Assembly: GCA_947569705.1 (NCBI GenBank) | Contig: CANOSP010000017.1 | Coordinates: 1-41,384 of the forward strand | Direction of reading: 5' to 3' | Origin: an uncultured Erysipelotrichaceae bacterium | GTDB taxonomy: Bacteria; Bacillota_I; Bacilli_A; Erysipelotrichales; Erysipelotrichaceae | Length of the DNA stretch: 41,384 nt | Shown here: positions 21,052 through 35,439 of the stretch, in pieces | How positions within the stretch are numbered: the stretch's first letter is position 1 | Layout: each line of letters begins with the position of its first letter | Notes under the pieces: generated by a model | The model's database searches: none | What the model was told of the DNA's origin: nothing | The model's input: the letters and a program-made list of their open reading frames with translations, nothing else | Program-made: the position numbers and the translations under genes

Positions 21052-22272
21052 TTAGGATCGCTGAAGCAGTGGATAATACCGTCGATCCATATGAATCAGC
21101 ACTGTTATAAGCAAGATGAGCGCAACACCGTAAATACCGATAAGACCCCAAACCTGTACAATGGTAATCAGCTCGACAAGACAGGCAACTCCCAGTCTGG
21201 AGAAAACCTCAAATAAATTTCTGAATACCATTTCCACCGCACTCATGCGTCCGCGATATAAGGCTGGAATGCGGCGGCTGACATAAGGAGCCATGCCGAG
21301 TGTAACGATCACCTCACCGAAAGTAAAGATCATAATCGCAACAAAATGCAGCCACAGAATCCCTTGAATAAACATAAACATCGTAAATCCGAGTACCTGA
21401 AGCGCCAAGCCTAAGCGCAATTTTTTGGTATCTTGAATGCGTGCCAGCAAAGTGGTGAACAGCGGTGTCGCCGCAATCACAACAAGCGCATTGACACTGG
21501 ATAACAGACCGTAATATCGCGCTCCGTCAACGCCGAAGCTTTGCTCCATATTGAGCGGCAGTAAAAAATTAAGCTGTGTATAGACGAGCGTTGAAGCACC
21601 GATGATAAAGATAAACAGTGCGACACACGGATTTTGTTTCAATACTTTCCAAACCGATAAATCACCGCTTCCCTGTTCATATATATTGTCCTGCTTTGAT
21701 TCTCGGCGTTTGATGTCTTTGACCAGAATAGCGATTAATAAAGTAGAACTCAAGGTCGCAATCGATGTCAGTAAAAACGCAACCGGTAGATAATGTTCAA
21801 ATAATAATCCGCCTAAGGCAGGCGCAATCACAAAGCCGAGATTCATGCCTAAATATGACAGACTGTATACTTGCTCACGCTCATCGGAATCGGATAAATC
21901 CGCAAGTAATGCCTGATATGAGGGATGTTCAAAGGCCGCAAAAGCACTTGCCGTAAACATGAAAAATAATGAAATTGTTGATAAGGGAATAAAAGCACAT
22001 ATCGCATAGCTGATCACCGTAATTAAATCACAAATAATAATGTTATTTTTCTTGTTAAAACGATCGGCAAGCACACCGCCGAACAGCGTAAAAGGCATTT
22101 GCCCGAGTCCGAAGATTAATAAAAGAAGAGCGGCATCAGAAGCTGCCATATTCATTTTATTGGTTAGAATCAAAGTCATCATCGGCCAAATCATTGCCCC
22201 CATGCTCGTTACGACACGTCCGTAAAACAGCACGTAGATTTCTTTTCTTAAGCCTCGATATCGCTGCAACAT
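21052..22272 (-). CDS. major facilitator superfamily transporter
   Basis: A 406-aa integral membrane protein with about twelve hydrophobic segments in two halves. The MFS signature loop between helices 2 and 3 is clear (GGVLADRFNKKN). The protein resembles drug-efflux or MdtG/YfmO-type carriers, but no substrate can be inferred. ATG 22272 (MLQRYRGLRKEIY) follows GAAGGGATAGG; the frame extends 13 codons further without a better site. It stands alone, with no regulator next to it. Confidence 0.88.
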   Translation of the reverse strand: MLQRYRGLRKEIYVLFYGRVVTSMGAMIWPMMTLILTNKMNMAASDAALLLLIFGLGQMPFTLFGGVLADRFNKKNNIIICDLITVISYAICAFIPLSTISLFFMFTASAFAAFEHPSYQALLADLSDSDEREQVYSLSYLGMNLGFVIAPALGGLLFEHYLPVAFLLTSIATLSSTLLIAILVKDIKRRESKQDNIYEQGSGDLSVWKVLKQNPCVALFIFIIGASTLVYTQLNFLLPLNMEQSFGVDGARYYGLLSSVNALVVIAATPLFTTLLARIQDTKKLRLGLALQVLGFTMFMFIQGILWLHFVAIMIFTFGEVIVTLGMAPYVSRRIPALYRGRMSAVEMVFRNLFEVFSRLGVACLVELITIVQVWGLIGIYGVALILLITVLIHMDRRYYPLLQRS

Positions 22273-22496
22273 CCTATCCCTTCTTTCTGTTGTTTTTTTA
22301 TAAAAAAACATTGTATTTTTATTAGTATCTCTTCATAAGCTCTTAAATGCCGTTATAACCTTTATTTATAGAAGTTTACGACATTTTTATTTTTGAAAAA
22401 TATTCACATATACTTTTATAATTTCTTATATTTTTGTTTTCAAAAGTAGTAAATTAGTAGTGATTTGTATTATTAGTTTTATGTTCGAATTAAAAA

Positions 22497-22686: not shown

Positions 22687-23202
22687 TTATCTAGATATTT
22701 TCATATGAATATCTTCTTCAGTTTTGCCTATTCCATCTCTTATAAAGCCAACTTTTTCATAACAATGAATTGCTCTTGGATTGGTTGCATAAACATTTAA
22801 TTCCATTCCATCTAAGTTTAATTCTTCATAAGCATATTTAATCAAAGCCTTAATAGCTTCAGTACCAAAATGCCTATCTTGTTTTAAGGCCGTAATAGAA
22901 ATACCTAATTCTCCGATATTGTTTTTAATTTCCATTATCTCTATATTTCCAATATATTCGCCAGTGTTTTTTTCTATCATGGAATAACACAAAGCATTTT
23001 CTTCAAGTTTTGAATTTAACCAATTCAACTCTTGTTCATAAGTATAAGTGCGAACTTTATGACTAATCTTATTAGCAACATTAGGATCATTTACCATAAT
23101 TAAATAATCATTAACCAATTTTTCACTTAATTTTACATAATAAATATTTTCTGATTCAAAAACTACTTCATAGTTTTGTTTTATAAAATCTATTTTTTCC
23201 AT
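22687..23202 (-). CDS. GNAT acetyltransferase, RimJ/RimL-like
   Basis: A 171-aa GNAT-fold protein. The acetyl-CoA loop falls around ALKQDRHFGTEAIKALIKYAYEE, and NLDGMELNVYATNPRAIHCYEKVGFIRDG is the typical C-terminal half. Such enzymes acetylate amino groups of proteins, antibiotics or small molecules; the substrate is unknown. ATG 23202 follows AAGGAGG. Its codons and flanks are much more AT-rich than leuS or the MFS gene beside it, which suggests transfer. The structured RNA downstream may be part of the same unit. Confidence 0.85.
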   Translation of the reverse strand: MEKIDFIKQNYEVVFESENIYYVKLSEKLVNDYLIMVNDPNVANKISHKVRTYTYEQELNWLNSKLEENALCYSMIEKNTGEYIGNIEIMEIKNNIGELGISITALKQDRHFGTEAIKALIKYAYEELNLDGMELNVYATNPRAIHCYEKVGFIRDGIGKTEEDIHMKISR

Positions 23203-23345
23203 TTTGTTCCTCCTTAATCTAGTTTTATTATACACTATTGTGACAAGTAATTCTAGATGACAAAAGTAAAATAACTTTAAAAATTTCTATAAAGTCTTTA
23301 AAATAAAGGTTTTTGTCAAAAATCACTCTTTTTATTATAAACTAT

Positions 23346-23380
23346 ATAAACTAAAAAGCGATTAAAATAATCACTTTTAG
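23346..23380 (-). terminator. intrinsic terminator overlapping the leuS stop
   Basis: CTAAAAGTGATT pairs with AATCGCTTTTTAG around a short loop on the minus strand, with T-rich sequence in the 3' arm. The leuS stop lies within the 5' arm. Confidence 0.55.
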
Positions 23381-25773
23381 TTTGCGACAATATTTACAAC
23401 CTTGCCCTTTACGACAATGATTTTACGTACTGTTTTACCCTCGATCTGTGCTTGTACGTTTTGTACCTGTAATGCCTCCTGCTTGATTGTTTCTTCATCG
23501 GCTTCTGCATCAATCATGAATTTACCGCGCAGCTTTCCGTTTACCTGTACGATAATTTCGATTTCACTCTTGACCAGCTGTTTTTCATCATAAACCGGCC
23601 ACGCTTCATCGGCGATACATGGTTTTTGTGTCAAGGTCGTATACATTTCCTCACATACATGCGGTGCAACACAAGACAGCATTTTGATAAAATCAAGTGC
23701 ATACGGACGATAAATTTTATCCGCCTTGTAGCAGTCATTGATGAAGATCATCATTTGTGAGATTGCCGTATTCATATTTAATGATTCAAAATCATTGGTA
23801 ACCTTTTTTACCGTATAGTGATAGCTGTAATCCAACGTACCGTCATTTTCATCGCTCAGCTTATCTGATTCCATGAATAAGCGCCATACGCGATCAAGCC
23901 ATTTACGGCTGCCTTCGACGCCGCTGTCCGCCCATGGTTTGCTGGCTTCTAACGGTCCCATAAACATTTCATATAAACGTAAGGTATCGGCACCATAGCG
24001 CTCGGTAATATCATCGGGATTTACGACATTGCCGCGTGATTTTGACATCTTTTCGTTGTTCTCACCCAAGATCATACCTTGATGGAATAAGCGCTGAAAC
24101 GGTTCCTTTACCGGTACTAAGCCTTTATCATATAGGTAATTGTTCCACATACGGGAATACAACAGATGCCCTACCGCATGCTCACTTCCGCCGATATATA
24201 AATCGACCGGAAGCCAGTGCTTTAACAGGCGCTGATCGGCAAATGCTTTATCGTTGTGCGGATCGATATAGCGTAAGAAATACCAGCTGGATCCGGCACT
24301 GCCCGGCATCGTGCTTGTTTCACGCTTCCCTTTTTGACCGTCTCTTTCCACATTGACCCAATCTACCGCCTTTTCTAACGGACTGGCACCGCTCTTGCTC
24401 GGTGAGTAATCGGCTAACGGCGGCAATACGAGCGGAAGCTCTTCATCGGCTAAGGTAACACTCTTTCCGTCTTCCATATGAACGACCGGAATCGGCTCAC
24501 CCCAATAGCGCTGACGGGCAAAGATCCATTCACGCAAACGATAGTTCACCTGTGAACGTCCGCATTTATTTGTTTCTAAATAAGCGATCATAGCGGCAAT
24601 CGCATCTTCTTTATTCATACCGTTTAAGAAATCGGAATTGATATGTACGCCATCCTGTGTCCACGCTTCTTTGGTAATATCTCCGCCTTCAAGTACCGGA
24701 ATAATCTCAAGTTCAAACTTTTTCGCAAACGCATAATCGCGTTCATCATGCGCCGGAACAGCCATAATTGCGCCGGTTCCGTATGATGCCAATACATAAT
24801 CGGAAATCCAAATCGGAATCTGCTTATTATTCACGGGATTGATCGCATAGGCACCGGTAAATACCCCGGTCTTTTCTTTGTTTAACTCGGTACGCTCCAG
24901 TTCTGATTTATGAGCGCAGGAAGCTACGTATTTTTCCACCTCTGCCTTTTGTGCGGCAGTAGTGATTTTGGCAACTAACTCATGCTCAGGCGCCAGAACA
25001 CAATAGGTAGCACCGAACAATGTATCGCAGCGTGTTGTAAATACGGTGAATTTCTCATCATGCTCAGCGACTTTAAAATCAACATGCGCACCATAGGAAC
25101 GTCCGATCCAATGACGCTGCATTTCCTTTGTGGAATTCGGCCAATCTAAAGTGTCCAGTCCCTCTAATAAGCGATCGGCATATTTTACAATATCAATCAC
25201 CCACTGCATCATATTTTTGCGTACGACCGGATAGCCGCCGCGCTCACTTTTACCGTCAATGATTTCATCATTTGCCAACACTGTTCCCAGTTCCTCACAC
25301 CAGTTTACCGGGATATTGACATAGCGTGCCAAGCCGTCCTCATACAACTGCTTAAAAATCCATTGAGTCCATTTATAGTAGCTCGGATCGCATGTTGAAA
25401 CCTGCTTGTCCCAATCAAGTCCGAATCCCAGCATTTTTAACTGACGAGTAAAGGTCGCAATATTTTCTAATGTAAAGCCTTCCGGATGATTGCCGGTCTG
25501 TATTGCATATTGTTCCGCCGGTAAACCGAAGGAATCAAAGCCCATCGGATGCAATACATTATATCCCTGCATCTTTTTCATTCTGCATACAATATCACTT
25601 GCCGTATAGCCTTCCGGATGACCGACATGCAGTCCCTGTCCGCTCGGATAAGGGAACATATCTACCGCATAAAATTTCGGTTTATCAAAATCCCATACAT
25701 CACATACAAAGGTTTTATTTTCTTCCCAGTATGCTTGCCATTTCTTTTCAATTTTCTGATGATCAAAGCCCAT
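23377..25773 (-). CDS. leuS: leucyl-tRNA synthetase
   Basis: Class Ia synthetase of 798 aa. The HIGH-type motif is [14 protein letters not shown], the KMSKS motif is [11 protein letters not shown], and the CP1 editing domain contains [12 protein letters not shown] and [12 protein letters not shown]. The protein is complete, with the C-terminal VNGKLRGKF segment. AAAGGTGG precedes the ATG. Expression is controlled by a T-box leader. Confidence 0.98.
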
Positions 25774-25796: not shown

Positions 25797-26015
25797 AAAA
25801 AAACGTCCCTGCGAGGACGTAATATACGCGGTACCACCTTGCTTCATATATTCATATAAATATATGCACTTCACCTTTTAACGCAAGGCTACGTATAACT
25901 TTTCATTATCGGCTCCTTAGTGAGTTCCCTAAAAGCATATAACAGTTTTTCACCGACCAACTGCTCTCTTAATACAGGCTTTTACGTACTACTCTAATTC
26001 TCTGCCTTTATTTCG
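25797..26015 (-). promoter_or_regulatory. T-box riboswitch of leuS
   Basis: The minus-strand leader has the T-box antiterminator core GGTGGTACCGCG (25838-25827). A terminator follows: ACGTCC/GGGACGT and seven T (25820-25797). A candidate specifier CTC (Leu) lies at 25924-25922 within GGGAACTCACTAAGG. Uncharged tRNA(Leu) would favour antitermination. Confidence 0.92.
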
Positions 26016-26133: not shown

Positions 26134-28959
26134 TTAATAGACTGTTAATTTTTCCCGTCGGTAAAAGTAAAGTGTTAAAGAGCCACTTTTTATTTCAAAT
26201 GTTACTCTTGATAAGCCACCTATATAAGACCAAAAGTTTTGTTTACCGCTTTCTTCAATTACTTCTATATCCGGATCCCAACCAAAATGATTAGTGTAAT
26301 AGTAATTTTCACATGTTTCTTTAAATGACACATCATTTGAATAAGCATAGTATCTAATTGTTCCAAAATCATCATTTTGGTTATCAAAAGTTATTGTTTG
26401 CCCGGCTGATAATTCGTAAGCAATTAAAGGCTCTAATCCATTTAAATTATTATAATCAGCATAATTCGTAAGATCTTCACATGGACCCATATCAAAATCT
26501 TCGCTTACAAAAACGGTTAATAGCCCTGAATAAACTTTAATCTCCCAATGCGATCCATTATTAACAGGACTCCAAAATTCTGTTTTTGCCTCCTCTTGCG
26601 CATGATAGACTAGATTACTATCAAAAGCTGCACTATATTCAGTATCTTTATCAAATATTACATAAATATATTTTGATTTTTTGAAATTTAATTCATAAGA
26701 TTCTCCTGGATTAATTGTTAAAACCTTATAATCATACTGTTTATCTAGTCCTATATCTAAATGATCTCTATCAATAGTAAAATCTGATTGATAAGTATTA
26801 GGCGCATAATTTTTAGCATTTACATTAATTTTATGATTCCCTTTCGGAACTTCTAAACTATAATAACCGGCACCATCAGTAATTACCGTTCTATCTGTAT
26901 AACCATCTACAGAAACTTCTGCTTTAGCAATTCCCTCTTTTGTTTTTGAATCATAAATTTTGCCTTTTACAATAACTGAATCAGCATAAGGCTTCAATAA
27001 AATAATACCTAAATCTGTTTCTTTTCCGCCTTTCACTTCTGCTTTTCCTTTATAAGTTTCATAATAATTACTTCTTACAATAACATCATACTTCCCCTTT
27101 TTTATTTTATTAAAACTGAAATACCCGTTTGACCCACTTTTAACAGAATCAACTATTTTTCCTTCTTTACTTAATATGATTTCCGCATATATTAATGGTA
27201 AACTTTCAGTACCATCTTGTTTATGGATAAAACCTTTTAAATCGCCGTATTTCCTTGTACACTCATCGACAAAACCATCCTCTTCAAAATGTCCATAACT
27301 TTTGATTGATGTATTATCTTTATCAGTAAGTTTATCTGTGAATTTTTTATCCCATAAACCAGGTAAAAGAATTGTTGTTATTGATGAATGGTTATAATAA
27401 CCGGCATCTAAACAATATTTATAAGGTGCCAAGGATATTGTATCAACATCTATTTCATAAGTTCTGCCTAATTCAAACTCTGCACTGATCAAACCTAAGT
27501 TTAAAAAATCAATTTTTGGTTCTAATATAAAACCAAGTCCTATATTTGCATTAACATTGGCTTTCTTTAATTCATTATCCAATTCCCATATTCCCTTTAA
27601 CTTACCTTTTTTGTAATCAAAACCTCCGGTAGCATTTATTGTGTATTCTATAGAAACGGAACCCTTAGAATTAAAATATGCGTAAAGATTTCCTTCAGCA
27701 AAAAATCCATTACCAATAGGAGAAACAAACTCTGCTAATTTTATTCTTCTATCGCCAATAAACTCTTTTTCTCCTTTTGCATCAACTTCTAATGATGCAT
27801 CTAAAGTTGTATAGGCTCTCTTAATGTCACATCCGAATAAATCACAAGATACATTCAAATCATAATTAATTTTATCAATACCTAATGATCCGGACACCTC
27901 TAAATCATCAATATTAAATTTGAAATTTTTATGCTTATCTAACTGTATAGAATCAGAACCATTTATACCAAAACGTGCTAAGCTCGGATTATTTTCATTC
28001 GCTGAACCCTCATTAAACACAATACCTTCTGCAGGTGTGATTGTAATATCATCAGTTTCTTCTCCAACATAATTTATTGTTTGGATTACTTCTGAAAATT
28101 TTGGTACACTGTATTGAACATCTATTTTGTCATTACTAGAAATTATTTTTTCTACTTTAATTACAATTCCACTCTCATCATTACTTTTAATGACATATAT
28201 TTTGCCAATTTCAAACTTAAGATCACTATTATAAACGGTTATAATTTGATTAACATCATTATTTTTGAATTCTGAACGATATTCAGTTATACCGTTTTGA
28301 TAAACAACCGGATCATTAGGATTATGATCATTCATTATATTGTATGCTATTTTACTATTAAGATTAACAGATATATTATCATATTTTATCGTATGAGTAA
28401 TATTAATAGTATTCACCGTATTTGCATGTACTGTATCAATTTTGAAAGCTCCTGATACACCACTAACGATTAATAATGTCGGTAATAAAACCTTACCTTT
28501 TTTCTTTTTAAGTATAAAATATGATGCACCTGACCCTAACACTATCAGTATCAACCACATTTGATTTTGTTCTTTATCCGAAGTATTTTTAATTGGATTT
28601 AATTTATCATTTTCATTTAAAATAATTTCTGCCTGTCTCTTTTCAATTTTATTATGTAAATGAATTGTTTCGTTCGGGTTTAAAACTTTATTTTCTAGTT
28701 TATCTATTTCATTTTCAGATAATACAAAACCTTCAGGCAGTGTATTCTCTATATGATTTATATTGATAGGATATTCATTTTTATTAGTGACACTTAATTC
28801 AATCTGTACTTCCTCACCATTTTCATACTCAGATTTATCAGTAAGTAATTCCACAACTATACCGTCTTGATCCTTTTCGGCTGCATATGTTGCAGTAAAG
28901 ACAGGAAAAGCGGTTAAACATAAAAACACAATCATTCCCCATTTTATTAATTTCTTCAT
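26134..28959 (-). CDS. large surface protein with carboxypeptidase-regulatory-like domains
   Basis: A 941-aa exported protein. Residues 1-27 form a signal peptide (cut after TYAA). An Ig-like or DUF11-type section (30-110) follows, then a hydrophobic segment at 134-150, KKKKGK, and a second hydrophobic segment at 157-172 ending in VHAN. Most of the protein then lies outside. Two beta-sandwich carboxypeptidase-regulatory-like domains sit at about 573-655 (SGSNGYFSFNKIKKGKYDV) and 663-745 (TDGAGYYSLEVPKGNHKI). A C-terminal section of about 190 residues is unassigned. No LPxTG end is present. ATG 28959 follows AAGGAGAG. It is divergent from an XRE regulator whose operator covers its promoter. 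Function unknown; adhesion is a guess. Confidence 0.75.
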   Translation of the reverse strand: MKKLIKWGMIVFLCLTAFPVFTATYAAEKDQDGIVVELLTDKSEYENGEEVQIELSVTNKNEYPININHIENTLPEGFVLSENEIDKLENKVLNPNETIHLHNKIEKRQAEIILNENDKLNPIKNTSDKEQNQMWLILIVLGSGASYFILKKKKGKVLLPTLLIVSGVSGAFKIDTVHANTVNTINITHTIKYDNISVNLNSKIAYNIMNDHNPNDPVVYQNGITEYRSEFKNNDVNQIITVYNSDLKFEIGKIYVIKSNDESGIVIKVEKIISSNDKIDVQYSVPKFSEVIQTINYVGEETDDITITPAEGIVFNEGSANENNPSLARFGINGSDSIQLDKHKNFKFNIDDLEVSGSLGIDKINYDLNVSCDLFGCDIKRAYTTLDASLEVDAKGEKEFIGDRRIKLAEFVSPIGNGFFAEGNLYAYFNSKGSVSIEYTINATGGFDYKKGKLKGIWELDNELKKANVNANIGLGFILEPKIDFLNLGLISAEFELGRTYEIDVDTISLAPYKYCLDAGYYNHSSITTILLPGLWDKKFTDKLTDKDNTSIKSYGHFEEDGFVDECTRKYGDLKGFIHKQDGTESLPLIYAEIILSKEGKIVDSVKSGSNGYFSFNKIKKGKYDVIVRSNYYETYKGKAEVKGGKETDLGIILLKPYADSVIVKGKIYDSKTKEGIAKAEVSVDGYTDRTVITDGAGYYSLEVPKGNHKINVNAKNYAPNTYQSDFTIDRDHLDIGLDKQYDYKVLTINPGESYELNFKKSKYIYVIFDKDTEYSAAFDSNLVYHAQEEAKTEFWSPVNNGSHWEIKVYSGLLTVFVSEDFDMGPCEDLTNYADYNNLNGLEPLIAYELSAGQTITFDNQNDDFGTIRYYAYSNDVSFKETCENYYYTNHFGWDPDIEVIEESGKQNFWSYIGGLSRVTFEIKSGSLTLYFYRREKLTVY

Positions 28960-29040
28960 ATTTTCTCTCCTTCGTTTAATTATCCCTGATTTCAATAAAA
29001 TTTATTTTAATACATAAAGTATCAAGTTCGGGATAATTTA

Positions 29041-29069
29041 ATTATAGTACAAATATTTACTAAAATCAA
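29041..29069 (-). promoter_or_regulatory. promoter of the surface protein gene
   Basis: TTGATT (29069-29064), 17 bases, TATAAT (29046-29041) on the minus strand. The spacer contains the left operator palindrome. Confidence 0.65.
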
Positions 29070-29088
29070 TAGTAAACATTTGTACTAT
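29044..29088. promoter_or_regulatory. double-palindrome operator for the XRE regulator
   Basis: AGTACAAATATTTACT (29046-29061) and AGTAAACATTTGTACT (29071-29086) are mirror images of each other, and each is itself a partial AGTA/TACT palindrome, 25 bases centre to centre. They lie between divergent genes and over the surface-gene promoter. Confidence 0.7.
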
Positions 29089-29112
29089 GTTATAGTTTAA
29101 AAAAGTGAAAAA

Positions 29113-29331
29113 ATGAAGCAAAATATACTACTGAAAAGACTGCGAGACTTGCGTGAAGATAATGATCTGACTCAAAGCAATATTGCCGATGTTTTAAAGA
29201 CTTCACAAACAATGTATGCTCGGTATGAGCGAGGCGCTAATGAGCTTCCGATTCATCATCTTATTACATTATGCAAATTTTATCATGTTTCTTCAGACTA
29301 TTTACTTGGTTTAAAAAACAATAAAAAATAA
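29113..29331 (+). CDS. XRE-family transcriptional regulator
   Basis: A 72-aa protein that is almost only a Cro/C1 helix-turn-helix: LRDLREDNDLTQSNIADVLKTS, then YARYERGANELPIHHLITLCKFY and SSDYLLGL. The ribosome binding site is weak (GTGA), so it may be made at low level. Its position next to a double operator over the divergent surface gene suggests that it represses that gene and itself (inference). Confidence 0.85.
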   Translation: MKQNILLKRLRDLREDNDLTQSNIADVLKTSQTMYARYERGANELPIHHLITLCKFYHVSSDYLLGLKNNKK

Positions 29332-29485: not shown

Positions 29486-29620
29486 TCAACGGCTCTTTAA
29501 TTTTTCAGACATCAGCCTCATAAGCCACGAAATCATTCTTTGGGAGAACACCAACAGTATAATAGTTGCGAAAACAAGTCCTCTCACTAAGCGCTGTACA
29601 TCTTCATCCAATCCCCTCAC
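29486..29620 (-). CDS. possible 44-aa membrane peptide
   Basis: A GTG frame of 44 codons with a strong single membrane segment (GLVFATIILLVF), an acidic and basic N-terminal helix (LDEDVQRLVR) and a basic tail (MSEKLKSR). Such charge-flanked helices are typical of small membrane proteins and type I toxins, but no family is recognised. The ribosome binding site is poor for the GTG. The best site, GAGGGG, serves an out-of-frame ATG at 29607 that encodes only six codons. It begins ten bases after the closing stem of the structured RNA. Translation is unproven. Confidence 0.4.
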   Translation of the reverse strand: MRGLDEDVQRLVRGLVFATIILLVFSQRMISWLMRLMSEKLKSR

Positions 29621-29629
29621 TCTCTTACA

Positions 29630-29789
29630 GAATGAAAGACACGCTTGCCACGTGCCTTTCCGTAGTTAGTTATCGAAAGGAAATTCGATAATGATGAACA
29701 ATTCCTTGAAAAGAGGAAGAATAACGGAATCATTCATAATTCATAATCAAGTGCCGCTTCATTATGAATCAGAAATAAATCTTATTTCT
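29630..29789 (-). ncRNA. structured RNA/leader upstream of the membrane peptide
   Basis: On the minus strand two hairpins come first: AGAAATAA/TTATTTCT (29789-29771) and ATTCATAAT/ATTATGAAT (29769-29739). A multibranch structure follows, closed by GAATGA/TCATTC (29735-29730 with 29635-29630). Inside are TTCCGT/ACGGAA (29729-29724 with 29663-29658), TTATCGAA/TTCGATAA (29691-29670) and GGCACG/CGTGTC (29656-29651 with 29643-29638). Helices this numerous and nested are unlikely by chance. No known riboswitch is recognised. Of the 590-base gap 29332-29921, 29357-29485 and 29805-29921 show nothing else convincing. Confidence 0.55.
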
Positions 29790-29795
29790 ATAGGC

Positions 29796-29804
29796 ATTAT
29801 ATCA
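29796..29804 (-). promoter_or_regulatory. extended -10 promoter of the structured RNA
   Basis: TGATATAAT on the minus strand, seven bases before the first hairpin. The -35 is weak. Confidence 0.55.
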
Positions 29805-29921
29805 TAAAAACAACCAAAATGTAACCCCTATCATAAATAATATTTTCGTTATATTCACTCATCAAAATCAGTGATTTAAGCTCATCTGTTCTCATAAAGA
29901 ACCAAAAACGTTGTACTATTT

Positions 29922-30725
29922 TTATTTCATTTTAAAAAGTCCATCCTTTTGTAAATATAGATTATCCTCATACAGCATATCAAATAGATCTTGACCTAAG
30001 ACTCTTTCCATCTGAAAATCATCTGCTCGATATACGCGAAAATATGCTTGATTATAATTCTTATGTAATTCCATCCATGAATCAAAGAATAACCGGGCAG
30101 TATCTTTATCCATACTTAAATATTTTTTAGCTAAATAAAACGAAGCTATTGCACTTACACAATCAATATTCTCTTGATTTACTAATACTGAGCGTGCTTT
30201 ACGATCATCTGAACAGAAAATATACAAATTCTCAATTCCTGTTGCTTCTAATAATTGTGCAGTTGTATAAAGCTTAATTTCTCCTAGGTTATTATCCTTT
30301 CCGACACCTTCATCACACTTTTCCAACTGTTTAATAAAATCATTCATATTGCAATCTAACCAAGTGCTTTTATGATAATATATCAATGAAGCGTAATACT
30401 TTTCAAAATAACCGTAAGAAAACGTATCACAGCTTATTTTAAGCATATTTAGATACAAACCGTATGCCGCAGATCCGAAATAATCAAACAAAAGTCGGAG
30501 AAATGCACGATCTGTATAAACGGTAATCTTTTCATTATTTTCCACCCAATCAGATACTGATACATTATAGCTTTTAAGTTCAACCACTGTTTGATAATGA
30601 CAAACAAAATGAAATTTTTCAATGCTTACGATTCTTTTTATAAGCATATCCGACTCATTTATTTTTGTATCATACAGCTTAGAAATAAAATCAGTATCTA
30701 ATAAAGCACATCCTCTATCTCCCAT
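29922..30725 (-). CDS. PIN-domain-like putative ribonuclease
   Basis: A 267-aa protein with acidic residues spaced as in PIN nucleases: D10 and D12 in LLDTDFISK, E49 in VVELKS, E149 in LGEIKLYTTAQLL, and D173/D174 in FCSDDRKAR. About 85 further residues follow the PIN part; they are not recognised. PIN toxins cleave tRNA, rRNA or mRNA. It is the third gene of an operon with an XRE protein and an ImmA/IrrE peptidase, six bases after the latter. The assignment rests on the motif pattern, not on a database match. Confidence 0.65.
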   Translation of the reverse strand: MGDRGCALLDTDFISKLYDTKINESDMLIKRIVSIEKFHFVCHYQTVVELKSYNVSVSDWVENNEKITVYTDRAFLRLLFDYFGSAAYGLYLNMLKISCDTFSYGYFEKYYASLIYYHKSTWLDCNMNDFIKQLEKCDEGVGKDNNLGEIKLYTTAQLLEATGIENLYIFCSDDRKARSVLVNQENIDCVSAIASFYLAKKYLSMDKDTARLFFDSWMELHKNYNQAYFRVYRADDFQMERVLGQDLFDMLYEDNLYLQKDGLFKMK

Positions 30726-30731
30726 ATCATC

Positions 30732-31553
30732 CTACTTTCTTAAAAGATACGCTATCATATCTTCAAGCTGTTTTTCATCCTCAAGGATGCGAGATTCAGA
30801 TAAAAGTCCCGCTTCCTTATTTTGCTTTACCCGGTTTGGTAAAACACCCATATCAATTTCATTTAAAGTTCGTTTCTGCCATCGCTCCGCAATATTTCTC
30901 ATCTGCATAGAAGACCTTAATCTCTCCGGTGTTCCCTCTTCTGCCAATTGATTTACAGTTTTTTCACTGATTATATTTTCTTCAAAAAGACGAAGCAGTA
31001 TTACTTTATACGGTACCGCAAAAATATCCATTAAACGAACAACTGAATCCAAGTTCATTTGTTTGCGATCAATATCATATATTTCAATTTGTTCATATAA
31101 TAAGGATGCCGGTACAAGAAGCAAACCGGCAAAAGCATTCGCTTCAATATCTTCTCTGTTTACGGCTTGTTCATCCATACATTCCGCTGTTAAAAAAGAA
31201 CCGCTGTGAGATAGCATATCATCTTGATCAGAGATATAACACCAAATATGATACAGTTCATGTGCTGCCGCAAATATTTGTTTAGAAATAGGTAGTGCAG
31301 AATTGATAACAGTGAAAAGTTGCCCCTCACGAATACAGGTAAATGCACAAAAATCATCGTCTTGAATCGGCAGCTTAAAAATTTCTAAGTGATGATTATT
31401 TTTTGTCGCATAGTTTTTTAAAATATTATAAATATCATCTTGAATAATATTACTGCCGTTATAAGATATATTGAATTCTTTAACACATCTTTGAAGTTCT
31501 TGAAATCGTGCCGCATTTCGCTTAAACAAGCTGTTTTCTATCACCTTATTCAT
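30732..31553 (-). CDS. ImmA/IrrE-family metallopeptidase
   Basis: A 273-aa protein with the zinc motif HELYH (H98, E99, H102) and the downstream EANAFAGLLLVP, whose Glu is the third ligand in the family. ImmA and IrrE cleave a partner XRE repressor on a signal. Here the partner is encoded directly upstream: its stop overlaps this start as TAATG, which implies coupled translation. A helical C-terminal part of about 100 residues follows the peptidase domain. Confidence 0.85.
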   Translation of the reverse strand: MNKVIENSLFKRNAARFQELQRCVKEFNISYNGSNIIQDDIYNILKNYATKNNHHLEIFKLPIQDDDFCAFTCIREGQLFTVINSALPISKQIFAAAHELYHIWCYISDQDDMLSHSGSFLTAECMDEQAVNREDIEANAFAGLLLVPASLLYEQIEIYDIDRKQMNLDSVVRLMDIFAVPYKVILLRLFEENIISEKTVNQLAEEGTPERLRSSMQMRNIAERWQKRTLNEIDMGVLPNRVKQNKEAGLLSESRILEDEKQLEDMIAYLLRK

Positions 31554-31930
31554 TATAAATTGCTCCGTTTCTTCATACCGATAACACCGCTTTTATAAAT
31601 ACGTGCATGAAACAAATACATATCGATTAATCGATCTGCAATTTCAATTCCCTTTTTTGCTTCAGCTGAATTCACATCGCCCATAAATGCCCGAACAACA
31701 TTTTCTTCAACAGGATGTTGAGGTATTTCCACCAGACTGTCCATAGACACATTACAAAAAATCGCAATTCTTTTCAAATCCACTGCATTTACCGTACGAG
31801 AACCTAAAAGCATATTGCTGACAACCTGCTTTGAGTATCCCAGTGCATTCGCAAGTTCATATTGCTTCTTACCGGATTTTTTAAGTGCAAGACTGATATT
31901 CTTCGCAATAATCGCTTTCATATCGATCAT
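31553..31930 (-). CDS. XRE-family repressor, partner of the ImmA/IrrE peptidase
   Basis: The 125-aa protein has an N-terminal helix-turn-helix (KKSGKKQYELANALGYSKQVVSNMLLGSRTV), then a linker and an amphipathic C-terminal part that could contact the peptidase. ATG 31930 follows AAGGAGGTATTTGT; the longer frame reads through that site. It is first in the XRE-ImmA-PIN operon and lies beside a strong promoter, as expected for an autorepressor. Confidence 0.85.
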   Translation of the reverse strand: MIDMKAIIAKNISLALKKSGKKQYELANALGYSKQVVSNMLLGSRTVNAVDLKRIAIFCNVSMDSLVEIPQHPVEENVVRAFMGDVNSAEAKKGIEIADRLIDMYLFHARIYKSGVIGMKKRSNL

Positions 31931-31954
31931 ACAAATACCTCCTTTTTCATTTAT

Positions 31955-31984
31955 ATTATACACGGCTTATCGTTCTCCAGTCAA
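31955..31984 (-). promoter_or_regulatory. promoter of the XRE-ImmA-PIN operon
   Basis: TTGACT (31984-31979), 18 bases, TATAAT (31960-31955). The short leader leaves room for operator overlap. Confidence 0.75.
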
Positions 31985-32000
31985 TAAATTATTTACTTAA

Positions 32001-32330
32001 ATATGAACTGATTGATATAAATCAAGATATAATGTACAAAATAAGACTTAGTCGCTTACATAAAATAAGTTGTAGACTGCATAAATTATAATAGAAAGAA
32101 ACATGAAAACGCCAGAATAGGAAACCTTGTTCTTAATAACTAAAAGTATGCACCTGCTGTATATGCTAAGAACTTCCAAGTCAGATAAACTATAATCATA
32201 AACAAGTAGGACAGGATATTGCGAACTTCCGAAAACACTTATAACAATTATCTTGCAAATCCATCTATAAAAATGATAAAAATAAATTTTATGTATTGAA
32301 ATCTATTCAGCAATCTCTTGATTAATATCT
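32001..32330. other. intergenic stretch without a clear gene
   Basis: AT-rich sequence between two accessory operons. A minus-strand frame from about 32308 to the TAA at 32048 has no stop for about 86 codons and encodes a hydrophobic stretch. It lacks a start codon and ribosome binding site near its beginning, so it may be a gene remnant or chance. No terminator is obvious. Confidence 0.3.
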
Positions 32331-32651
32331 TTATTTTAATTTCAAACAATGGGACTTTATCCTATCTAAAAATTTGGTTTCCCTCTCTTCTTCAACACTT
32401 AAAGATGTTATATCAACAAACATACCGAATTCCTTTTCTAATTCATTTGTAAATAGTATTAAATCATTGCCCAATTTATTTGAATATTCTGTGTAGATGA
32501 TTAATATATCAATGTCATTATTAATTATTTTTAGCTCTAATGCAGAACCGAATAAGAATACATGCTTGAAAGAATCAAACTGCGATATATGTTTTCTTAC
32601 CCGTTTGATAATATCATTATTCAACTTACTTAATTCCGTTAATATATTCAT
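32331..32651 (-). CDS. MNT-type nucleotidyltransferase-domain protein
   Basis: A 106-aa minimal nucleotidyltransferase: FLFGSALELKIINNDIDILIIY contains GS and the DxD metal pair, and a third Asp falls in FGMFVDITSLS. Such proteins modify partners by AMP transfer in MNT-HEPN toxin-antitoxin modules. No HEPN gene is present; the partner is the HNH gene upstream, which it overlaps by 26 bases. ATG 32651 follows GGGTGAT. Confidence 0.8.
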   Translation of the reverse strand: MNILTELSKLNNDIIKRVRKHISQFDSFKHVFLFGSALELKIINNDIDILIIYTEYSNKLGNDLILFTNELEKEFGMFVDITSLSVEEERETKFLDRIKSHCLKLK

Positions 32652-33771
32652 AAAAATCACCCATAGTTAACAGCTGAACATTCATCTGTTTTGCCAACAT
32701 ATATGCTTGGCTGGAAATGCAGCCTTCTCCGTTCCAGTTATGTAAGTTGACAACAATGCTGTTTTTCTCTGGAGCGAGATGCATTAATTCAGATTTGCTC
32801 AAGCAATATTCATAAACAAAAATCAGCTTTCTGTTTTGTATAGTAATTACTCTTAAATTGCTATCAGACAAAAAATTAAAACTAACATTCCTTGAACGGA
32901 TATACTTCAAAGCATAATTTAAACTTTTCAAGCGCACTTTTGCCCCCATAAAGCAGCCATAATCAAAATACAACTGTCTCAATCTGGGGGTATCATCTAA
33001 GAAAACTCGAACTGATTTCCCTTCCTCATTCATTTGAATATACGGACGATCAACGCCAATAACTATGGCTTTATATTTACCTTGTACCTTTAGACTTTCA
33101 ATTAAAAGTTCCAACGACTCAGTGGAAGGGAGAAGGAAATCTTTGACAGGAGTAATTCCAAACATTGAATTTATTTCTGATGGAAAAAGAATTTCCCTGT
33201 TTTTCTCTTTTTCTGTACGAGTTGCTTCGAATTCGTCAACATGCGCTATAAAAGATTGAACATACGCCAAATTTGAGTAAGATTTATCTCGATGTCGTTG
33301 AATTAAATCAACATTTGTTAAAAATAGCTCCTTTAGTTTTCTGTTATTCACCAATACCTTACTTTCAAATTTATCCCACAAGGATCGGTTGTCACTCAAA
33401 TAGTATCTTTCATAAATAATTTTGTTTTCCTGAAGCAGAGGGACAACTTCCTTTTTTAACTCCTCAAATGATTCAAACTTTTTTCCGAAAAATCTTTCTA
33501 GTTCCTTCCTTCTGGTCTCTTTCCATCCCAAAACTTCTTCTGATGGAAAAGCATGGTTTTTATCAAACTTTGTATGACAATTTGGGCAAAGCAAAATTAA
33601 GTTATCAAATGAATTGTCAGCTGTTTCACAATAAGGATCAATATGAGCTTTTTCCATTATATCGCCATTTTTACAAAATAACTCTCGCTGACAACTTGGA
33701 TTCATACACCGTCCCATTGATTCCGCATATAATTTTCTTTTAACAGCTTCGTCTATGTATCTACTAACCAT
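32626..33771 (-). CDS. HNH endonuclease-domain protein
   Basis: A 381-aa protein. An HNH nuclease domain lies at about residues 20-75: C..C in RCMNPSCQRE, KAHIDPYC, then FDNLILLCPNCHTKFDKNH. The central part is helical (80-190). The C-terminal half (about 230-381) has alternating strands and helices (KAIVIGVDRPYIQM, IVVNLHNWNGEGCISS) and is not recognised. ATG 33771 follows AAGGAG. With the overlapping nucleotidyltransferase gene it forms a two-gene unit, a plausible defence or addiction module (inference). Confidence 0.75.
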   Translation of the reverse strand: MVSRYIDEAVKRKLYAESMGRCMNPSCQRELFCKNGDIMEKAHIDPYCETADNSFDNLILLCPNCHTKFDKNHAFPSEEVLGWKETRRKELERFFGKKFESFEELKKEVVPLLQENKIIYERYYLSDNRSLWDKFESKVLVNNRKLKELFLTNVDLIQRHRDKSYSNLAYVQSFIAHVDEFEATRTEKEKNREILFPSEINSMFGITPVKDFLLPSTESLELLIESLKVQGKYKAIVIGVDRPYIQMNEEGKSVRVFLDDTPRLRQLYFDYGCFMGAKVRLKSLNYALKYIRSRNVSFNFLSDSNLRVITIQNRKLIFVYEYCLSKSELMHLAPEKNSIVVNLHNWNGEGCISSQAYMLAKQMNVQLLTMGDFYEYINGIK

Positions 33772-33852
33772 TTTATATTCTCCTTCAGTATAGATTCCCA
33801 AATAAAAAGCAATTAGAGTTAATAACAGATAAGCCAAAAAAATATCATAAAT

Positions 33853-34053: not shown

Positions 34054-35439
34054 TTATTTATTTTGAATATATTCATCAATTGCTTTGGCAGCTGTTTTTC
34101 CGGCACCCATTGCCAAAATGACAGTAGCTGCACCGGTAACGGCATCACCGCCGGCAAATACGCCCTCTCTTGTGGTTTTACCGCTTTCATCAGTGATTAA
34201 GCAGCCTTTGCGATTTGTATCAAGACCTTCTGTCGTAGAGCGAATGAGTGGGTTCGGTGAAGTTCCGATTGCCATAATCATACAATCGGCTTCAATAACG
34301 AAATTGCTGTTTGCCTTCTCTACCGGACGACGACGTCCGCTTTCATCAGGTTCACCCAATTCCATCTCAACACATTCAACACCCTTGACCCAGCCTTCCT
34401 CATTGCCGAGTACACGCACCGGGTTACGCAACAGACAGAACTGAATTCCTTCTTCCATCGCATGTTCAACCTCTTCCTTACGCGCCGGAAGCTCTTCCAT
34501 CGATCTGCGATACACTACCGATACTTCCTTGACACCTAAGCGCTTTGCACAACGTGCCGCATCCATTGCGACATTGCCGCCGCCGACAATAACTGCTTTT
34601 TCAGGTCGTTGAATCGGTGTATCCACACCCTCTTGATATGCCTTCATCAGATTACAACGAGTTAAAAATTCATTGGCAGAATATACACCCTTTAGATTTT
34701 CACCGGGTAAATTCATAAAGTTAGGCAATCCGGCACCGCTTCCGATAAATACAGCTTCATAGCCTTCCTCAAATAATTCATCAACCGATTCACTGCGACC
34801 GATGACCGTATTGCATTCAATCTCTACACCCTGCTGCTTCAAGCCTTCGATTTCGTGCTGAACAATTTCCTTCGGTAAACGAAATTCCGGGATACCGTAC
34901 ATCAATACACCGCCCGCTACATGTAATGCCTCAAAGACTGATACTTGATAGCCGAGCTTCGCCAAATCACCGGCACAGGTCAAGCCTGCCGGACCGGAAC
35001 CTACTACCGCTACTTTATGACCGTTTGATTGCGGCTTCGGCAATGCTTCCTTACAATTTTTTCGATACCAGTCAGCGACGAAACGCTCCAAGCGACCGAT
35101 CGCAACGCTTTCACCTTTAATGCCGCGCACACACTTTTGTTCACACTGCGTTTCCTGCGGACATACACGACCGCAAACAGCCGGCAAAGAACTGGTTTCA
35201 TGAATCACCTCATATGCCTTTTTAAAATCACCCTTTGCGACCTCAGCGATAAAATCAGGAATTTTAACCTTTACCGGACAGCCGCTGACACACGGACGAT
35301 TTACACAATTTAAACAGCGTGTTGCTTCCTCAACTGCCATCGCTTCATCATATCCGAGTGCAACTTCATCAAAATTACCGCTGCGGACAATTCCGTCCTG
35401 CACCGGCATTTTCACTTTTTCATTCGCCATATTCGCCAT
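34054..35439 (-). CDS. NfnB/GltD-like NADPH-binding flavoprotein, large subunit
   Basis: A 461-aa protein of the glutamate synthase small-subunit family. The N-terminal iron-sulphur part has RCLNCVNRPCVSGCPV and VCGRVCPQETQCEQKC for two [4Fe-4S] clusters. An FAD site (VAVVGSGPAGLTCAGDLAKLG) and an NADPH site (VIVGGGNVAMDAARCAKRLG) follow, and the end is GDAVTGAATVILAMGAGK. With NfnA directly upstream it matches NADH-dependent ferredoxin:NADP oxidoreductase (NfnAB) or sulfide dehydrogenase (SudAB), which share the design. AAGGAGG for this gene lies inside the end of nfnA. Confidence 0.85.
   Translation of the reverse strand: MANMANEKVKMPVQDGIVRSGNFDEVALGYDEAMAVEEATRCLNCVNRPCVSGCPVKVKIPDFIAEVAKGDFKKAYEVIHETSSLPAVCGRVCPQETQCEQKCVRGIKGESVAIGRLERFVADWYRKNCKEALPKPQSNGHKVAVVGSGPAGLTCAGDLAKLGYQVSVFEALHVAGGVLMYGIPEFRLPKEIVQHEIEGLKQQGVEIECNTVIGRSESVDELFEEGYEAVFIGSGAGLPNFMNLPGENLKGVYSANEFLTRCNLMKAYQEGVDTPIQRPEKAVIVGGGNVAMDAARCAKRLGVKEVSVVYRRSMEELPARKEEVEHAMEEGIQFCLLRNPVRVLGNEEGWVKGVECVEMELGEPDESGRRRPVEKANSNFVIEADCMIMAIGTSPNPLIRSTTEGLDTNRKGCLITDESGKTTREGVFAGGDAVTGAATVILAMGAGKTAAKAIDEYIQNK

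Follow-up and report, generated by a model that had tools for sequence, protein, structure and literature searches.

The window (the whole stretch of DNA analysed, 41,384 nucleotides) carries a structured RNA on its minus strand, read from ~29789 to 29628 (Table 1); the preliminary description of this DNA had left the strand unstated. In most genomes, gltA/nfnB is the immediate upstream neighbour of the RNA, and either leuS, with its T-box leader, or efp lies downstream. The leuS T-box lies 130–160 nt past the RNA in two relatives of the same genus (G003 and G001). The window keeps this ancestral order, opened by two insertions: ~4 kb now separate gltA from the RNA, and ~3.6 kb separate the RNA from the leuS T-box. 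The RNA is opposite in strand to its neighbours in three genomes (G064, G066, and G240). The locus order is kept and the RNA occurs between gltA and leuS/efp in both orientations, which leaves no fixed cis target. This speaks for an independent, vertically inherited gene and against a cis role for any particular neighbour.

Table 1 Features of the RNA locus in the window
Feature	Coordinates	Strand	Remarks
gltA/nfnB	34054-35439	minus	Ancestral upstream neighbour; TIGR01316, 582 bits
Operator-like box	29819-29834	minus	ATGATAGGGGTTACAT; pseudo-palindromic, 16 bp; overlaps the -35
Sigma-A promoter	29796-29825	minus	-35 GTTACA (29825-29820); extended -10 TGaTATAAT; TATAAT (29801-29796)
Small RNA, ~160 nt	29628-29789	minus	Covariance-model match G000:C17:29628-29789, 142 bits with R2
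Hairpin P1	29771-29789	minus	AGAAATAA-GAT-TTATTTCT; perfect hairpin
Hairpin P2	29739-29769	minus	Perfect hairpin; conserved GGC(U/A) loop
Hairpin P3	29695-29736	minus	C/U-rich loop UUAUUCUUCCUCUUUUC at 29708-29724
Hairpin P4	29670-29691	minus	UUAUCGAAUUUCCUUUCGAUAA; near-invariant sequence; second pyrimidine loop at 29676-29684
Terminator hairpin P5	29634-29660	minus	GAAAGGCACG-UGGCAAG-CGUGUCUUUC; short U-rich tail
44-codon frame	29486-29620	minus	GTG start; damaged remnant, outside the RNA
leuS T-box leader	25810-26011	minus	Ancestral downstream neighbour; RF00230, 124.9 bits
leuS	23377-25773		TIGR00396, 1067 bits

The gltA–RNA insertion is a minus-strand gene group (29922-33837) with the appearance of a defence or mobile-element island. 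It encodes an unassigned 267-aa protein (29922-30725), an ImmA/IrrE-type peptidase (30732-31553), an HTH protein (31553-31963), a nucleotidyltransferase (32331-32660), and an HNH protein (32626-33837). The HNH protein has weak similarity, below the cut-off, to the HNH regions of Cas9/IscB and is probably an ordinary HNH endonuclease. The second insertion encodes, on the minus strand, a 953-aa protein (26134-28995) that has an apparent signal peptide as well as CarboxypepD_reg repeats and is probably located at the cell surface. On the plus strand, between the ORFs 21052-22311 and 22687-23235, there is a match to the ssNA-helicase RNA motif (Rfam RF03070; 22568-22616, 47.3 bits), a little-studied RNA class.

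The RNA is preceded by a promoter of its own with an extended -10 (TGATATAAT), as the preliminary description had proposed. The -35 and -10 elements are separated by a spacer of 18 and match the consensus at 10 of 12 positions, and the arrangement is kept in homologues. The 19 bases 5' of the -10, ATGATAGGGGTTACATTTT, do not differ among the six copies of the window's genus. Transcription would start near 29789, and these signals suggest that the RNA is transcribed as a discrete unit. The 166-base stretch 29790-29625 folds with -51.3 kcal/mol, as compared with -30.0 ± 4.0 for shuffled sequences (z = -5.3), and none of 200 shuffles is as stable.

The family fold in the window copy is composed of five hairpins in a row (P1–P5), the last of which is a terminator hairpin. 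P1 and P2 are the two perfect hairpins that had been noticed after the -10. The closed multibranch structure described behind them is not retained, the conserved fold of this copy being the hairpin row. The P2 loop reads GCGGCAC in the window and UUGGCUC or AGGCUCA in other genera. P1 is restricted to a first subgroup of copies; the second subgroup instead has a helix, GGAUAAA/UUUAUUC, that closes P2 and P3 and is found only there. When the copies are folded separately, the common order is P1 (or the GGAUAAA/UUUAUUC helix), P2, P3, P4, and P5, with few exceptions. In several P1-bearing copies (L043, L045, L064, and L066), UUUAUUC is kept between P3 and P4. It could compete with P1, which hints at alternative folds.

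At the 3' end, the terminator hairpins of relatives are perfect and their U tails longer than that of the window copy, for example AAGAACGUGA..UCACGUUCUUUUU in G012. A consensus terminator scan calls no terminator in the window copy, where the U tail is weak. The homologues thus combine a conserved promoter of their own with an intrinsic terminator, as is expected of an autonomous small-RNA gene.

A DNA search finds copies in the window's genus at 91–98% (G002, G005, and G006) and ~71% identity (G001 and G003), and in several of them the match ends at the RNA end or shortly beyond. Covariance models were built from two copies (R1), 12 sequences (R2), and 15 sequences (R3). R1 finds further family copies, mostly in genera hardly alignable by BLAST. 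After inspection, the accepted set comprises 33 genomes of 18 genera of the GTDB family Erysipelotrichaceae, with one copy per genome: 15 copies mostly with P1, 15 with the closing helix, and those of G027, G211, and G216. Most of the 272 genomes of the family have no match with the covariance models; there the RNA has either disappeared or diverged too far. None of the inspected R3 matches in 395 genomes of the class outside the family is credible, all being terminator-like or chance.

An exact search for the P4 pattern in 84,980 species returns 12 stretches. Nine are from Erysipelotrichaceae, and the other three (L052, L059, and L060) are chance matches, rejected as copies since they are without any other part of the RNA. 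Among named genomes, the pattern search places the RNA in Longicatena caecimuris DSM 29481 and Amedibacillus dolichus DSM 3991. As to a mobile origin, there is no match of the P4 pattern in IMG/VR, nor any in phages or plasmids. One further locus (L148, in G117; 28.7 bits) is excluded from the copy count. It is a candidate C-rich small RNA with a GGCUC stretch, CCCCCC loops (CUCCCCCCUUA), and behind these a strong terminator, lies in a genus in which no copy of the RNA was found, and is possibly a distant relative.

Initial MAFFT alignments placed P1 and P4 wrongly, so model-based and subgroup alignments were used. The covariation test was made on a sequence-only alignment of the 15 copies of the second subgroup, with 43 pairs. 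In this alignment 93.6% of the cells are paired, and double-sided changes occur in 20 of the 43 pairs, as compared with 4–6 in slid structures. The double-sided cells number 52 (16.5 expected by shuffling); slid controls give 4–8. None of 500 shuffles reaches these numbers. Double-sided changes are found in all six pairs of helix 3, which corresponds to P2, and in 8 of the 13 pairs of P5. In the first subgroup, with the alignment anchored on the P2 loop, 90% of the P2 stem cells pair, against 29–46% after a slide of one or two bases; two or more pair types occur at most positions. The P3 stem varies with compensation. For P1 and P4, conservation fits the structure and covariation adds little; in the second subgroup four of the six P4 pairs never vary. 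The compensated pairs, 93.6% paired with 0 of 500 shuffles and 90% versus 29–46% in P2, indicate that the structure is under selection.

The preliminary description had made its case depend on homologues with compensatory changes and on silence in Rfam, and it withstands both comparisons. Many compensatory changes are present, as expected of a structured RNA family. Neither in the window nor in eight homologous loci is the RNA covered by an Rfam 15 family, at gathering or relaxed thresholds; up to E = 5, there are only chance matches over it. The view that the RNA belongs to no catalogued class is thus upheld.

A DNA-level element, such as an integration site that is not expressed as RNA, could account for the insertions on both flanks in the window (genes 29922-33837 and 26134-29331) and for the divergence of related genomes right beside the RNA. 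We consider this highly unlikely, as the compensatory changes, the U-tailed terminators, and the conserved promoters imply selection on a transcript.

The preliminary description had further proposed that the RNA leads into, and may control, a 44-aa membrane peptide. The frame is present in the window, and so is the overlapping six-codon frame (ATGAAGATGTACAGCGCTTAG), but the peptide is not conserved with the RNA. G002 and G006 have homologous DNA with a longer frame (DEDVQR..VRGLVFA...) after the RNA. Compared with these, the window copy has lost one nucleotide and a further ~47 nt, which alters the frame. Judged from this comparison, the 44-aa ORF is what a frameshift has left of the longer frame in its close relatives. 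A different sequence follows the RNA in G005, G003, and G001, where the 44-aa frame is absent. In other genera (G012, G064, and G004), unrelated-looking small membrane proteins occupy the site. The 44-aa frame has no Pfam match. The RNA and the peptide frame are therefore not linked in the way expected of a leader.

The frame begins shortly past the last hairpin, a position that would suit an RNA acting in cis on the gene behind it, as a leader or attenuator. Several genomes do have a same-strand gene within ~60–130 nt downstream. However, the downstream genes vary (leuS, efp, small membrane proteins, inserted genes), and in G003, G001, and several others a separate promoter-like sequence follows the RNA. 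The frame in the window is itself a remnant, the RNA ends in a terminator hairpin, and the copies antiparallel to their neighbours largely refute a leader. Such a role is thus very improbable, and control of the peptide by the RNA is abandoned. Still more remote is a type I or III toxin–antitoxin RNA with the 44-aa peptide as the toxin. A small predicted membrane peptide does adjoin a structured RNA, as this reading requires, but it is frameshifted, lacks a Pfam match, and is absent or different beside other copies. In addition, the RNA has no tandem repeats and occupies a fixed, non-mobile chromosomal site, with no phage or plasmid matches. The structured RNA is real, most probably an autonomous small-RNA gene, and not the leader of the 44-codon frame.

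Nearly all copies of the RNA have a box, TGWAAGGGTTTACA, upstream that overlaps the -35, and its half-sites and geometry are those of LacI-family operators. The family consensus is aTGWAAGGGTTTACAttt. Among 30 aligned loci, T and G at positions 3-4 are found in 29, each position of GGG is kept in 27–29, and TTACA is invariant. The canonical cre, TGWAANCGNTNWCA, does not occur at the promoter, as G or T replaces the central C in all 30 copies; in a further one, that of G216, GCG is present and the TG is missing. The box TGATAGGGGTTACA of the window deviates further from cre than the others. We therefore reject the box as a canonical cre: ordinary GCG-centred sites exist in the genome, and the box is not among them. 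A variant site, cre_var, has the core TGTAAA-spacer-TTTACA (PMC5263246). Its right half, TTTACA, is present in most copies, whereas the left half of the box, TGWAAG, differs at one or two letters. Of the 25 genomes checked, 23 have a CcpA-like protein, which scores under the equivalog cut-off. CcpA-type control of the RNA is plausible, though clearly less likely than not.

In P2 and P3, the loops are constant and the stems variable. P2 presents GGCU, and the P3 loop core reads UCCUUCC in 27 of the 33 copies and UUCUUCC in four more. The window's own group carries UUCUUCCUC as its P3 loop sequence, and the pyrimidine loop is missing or altered in G140 and G004. The P3 loop thereby exposes a pyrimidine-rich stretch complementary to the Shine–Dalgarno sequence. 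P4 has a second UUCC-bearing loop, UUUCCUU. Its stem is conserved along with the loop; this points to protein binding or a constraint of another sort.

We favour, with a probability of about 0.58, an autonomous trans-acting small RNA that is regulated through the cre-like box, carries anti-Shine–Dalgarno sequences in the P3 and P4 loops, and does not act on the adjacent peptide. The RNA would be made from its own sigma-A promoter and end at its own terminator hairpin, both of which are seen in the sequence. A LacI-family regulator, probably CcpA-like, would bind the pseudo-palindrome over the -35, and the RNA would be produced once the preferred sugar runs low. The hairpins would then present the constant loops, chiefly P3 UCCUUCC and P4 UUUCCUU. 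We infer from the loop sequence and from the pattern of constant loop and variable stem that these loops pair with the Shine–Dalgarno sequences of several mRNAs and so block ribosome loading. The P2 GGCU loop might, at a guess, lend specificity or bind a protein. The adjacent peptide would be no target.

A crude pattern search, AAGGAAGG(N)ATG, in 22 genomes yields 109 stretches. Most of the ATGs lie inside genes, and no conserved mRNA target is found among these stretches. The gene sufC, the one repeated candidate, stood out in two genera (G004 and G140) and is rejected as a target, as its other readable orthologues lack extended complementarity. Separately, many genera (L279–L303) have a conserved motif resembling AATCGTNTNAATTGAGATTT ~60 bases before sufC, at which a regulator of the suf operon possibly binds.

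RNAs such as CsrB and 6S RNA sequester proteins. By analogy, an RNA-binding protein could dock on the constant loops (GGCUC, ACAUCCUUCCUU, and P4) and be sequestered there. The simultaneous constancy of three separate loops and the invariance of the P4 stem and loop, which goes beyond the needs of an antisense loop, speak for such a role. However, each motif is present in one copy only, Rfam is silent, and there is no known sequestering motif: repeated GGA is absent on the minus strand, as is a 6S-like open bubble. We regard protein sequestration as unlikely. A wider version of the anti-Shine–Dalgarno reading, which we put forward only tentatively and think rather doubtful, is a lineage-specific master riboregulator of carbon/redox metabolism. 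It would be under CcpA-type control via the variant operator and act on many mRNAs with its two anti-Shine–Dalgarno loops. Its 5' part may switch between P1 and the UUUAUUC helix closing the P2/P3 junction, since P1 is seen in the first subgroup and the closing helix in the second, and UUUAUUC persists in several of the copies with P1.

The proposed mode of working resembles that of RsaI/RsaOG of Staphylococcus aureus (111 nt), an autonomous, CcpA-repressed small RNA that blocks translation via Shine–Dalgarno pairing (PMC9266662). The two RNAs are non-homologous by covariance search (Rfam), their helix order differs, and the operator of the Erysipelotrichaceae RNA is merely cre-like. In RsaE/RoxS, the C-rich motif UCCC has been proposed to pair with Shine–Dalgarno sequences (PMC9266662); Rfam gives no match here, and the Erysipelotrichaceae motif is UCCUUCC inside hairpin P3. 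The streptococcal csRNAs of the CiaR regulon have their own promoter with an operator, a terminator, and complementarity to the Shine–Dalgarno sequence and the AUG (PMC3091779). Similarly, distant Erysipelotrichaceae copies read CAU(U)CCUUCC, complementary to both. The csRNAs, however, carry the motif between two stem-loops, have two to six genes per genome, and use CiaR boxes (TTTAAG repeats), whereas the Erysipelotrichaceae RNA has a single gene, a loop-borne motif, and a different operator. Objects of a like kind are among the ncRNA motifs newly described by Narunsky et al. 2024. One of these, the idnO motif, a leader located between manX and idnO, is present in Erysipelotrichaceae too; their main text contains no gltA-associated motif (PMC11109978).

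In the literature searched, supplementary files aside, no regulatory small RNA is described in Erysipelotrichaceae. The RNA family, absent from Rfam 15 and from that literature, is new, and its kind is already known. Erysipelotrichaceae are common gut bacteria of humans and animals. Conservation over 18 genera, a fixed chromosomal site, and a regulated-looking promoter indicate that the RNA is probably important to these bacteria, and the family is directly testable in named strains. If our reading is true, the anti-Shine–Dalgarno small-RNA strategy of staphylococci and streptococci would extend to another lineage of Firmicutes, by way of an unrelated RNA.
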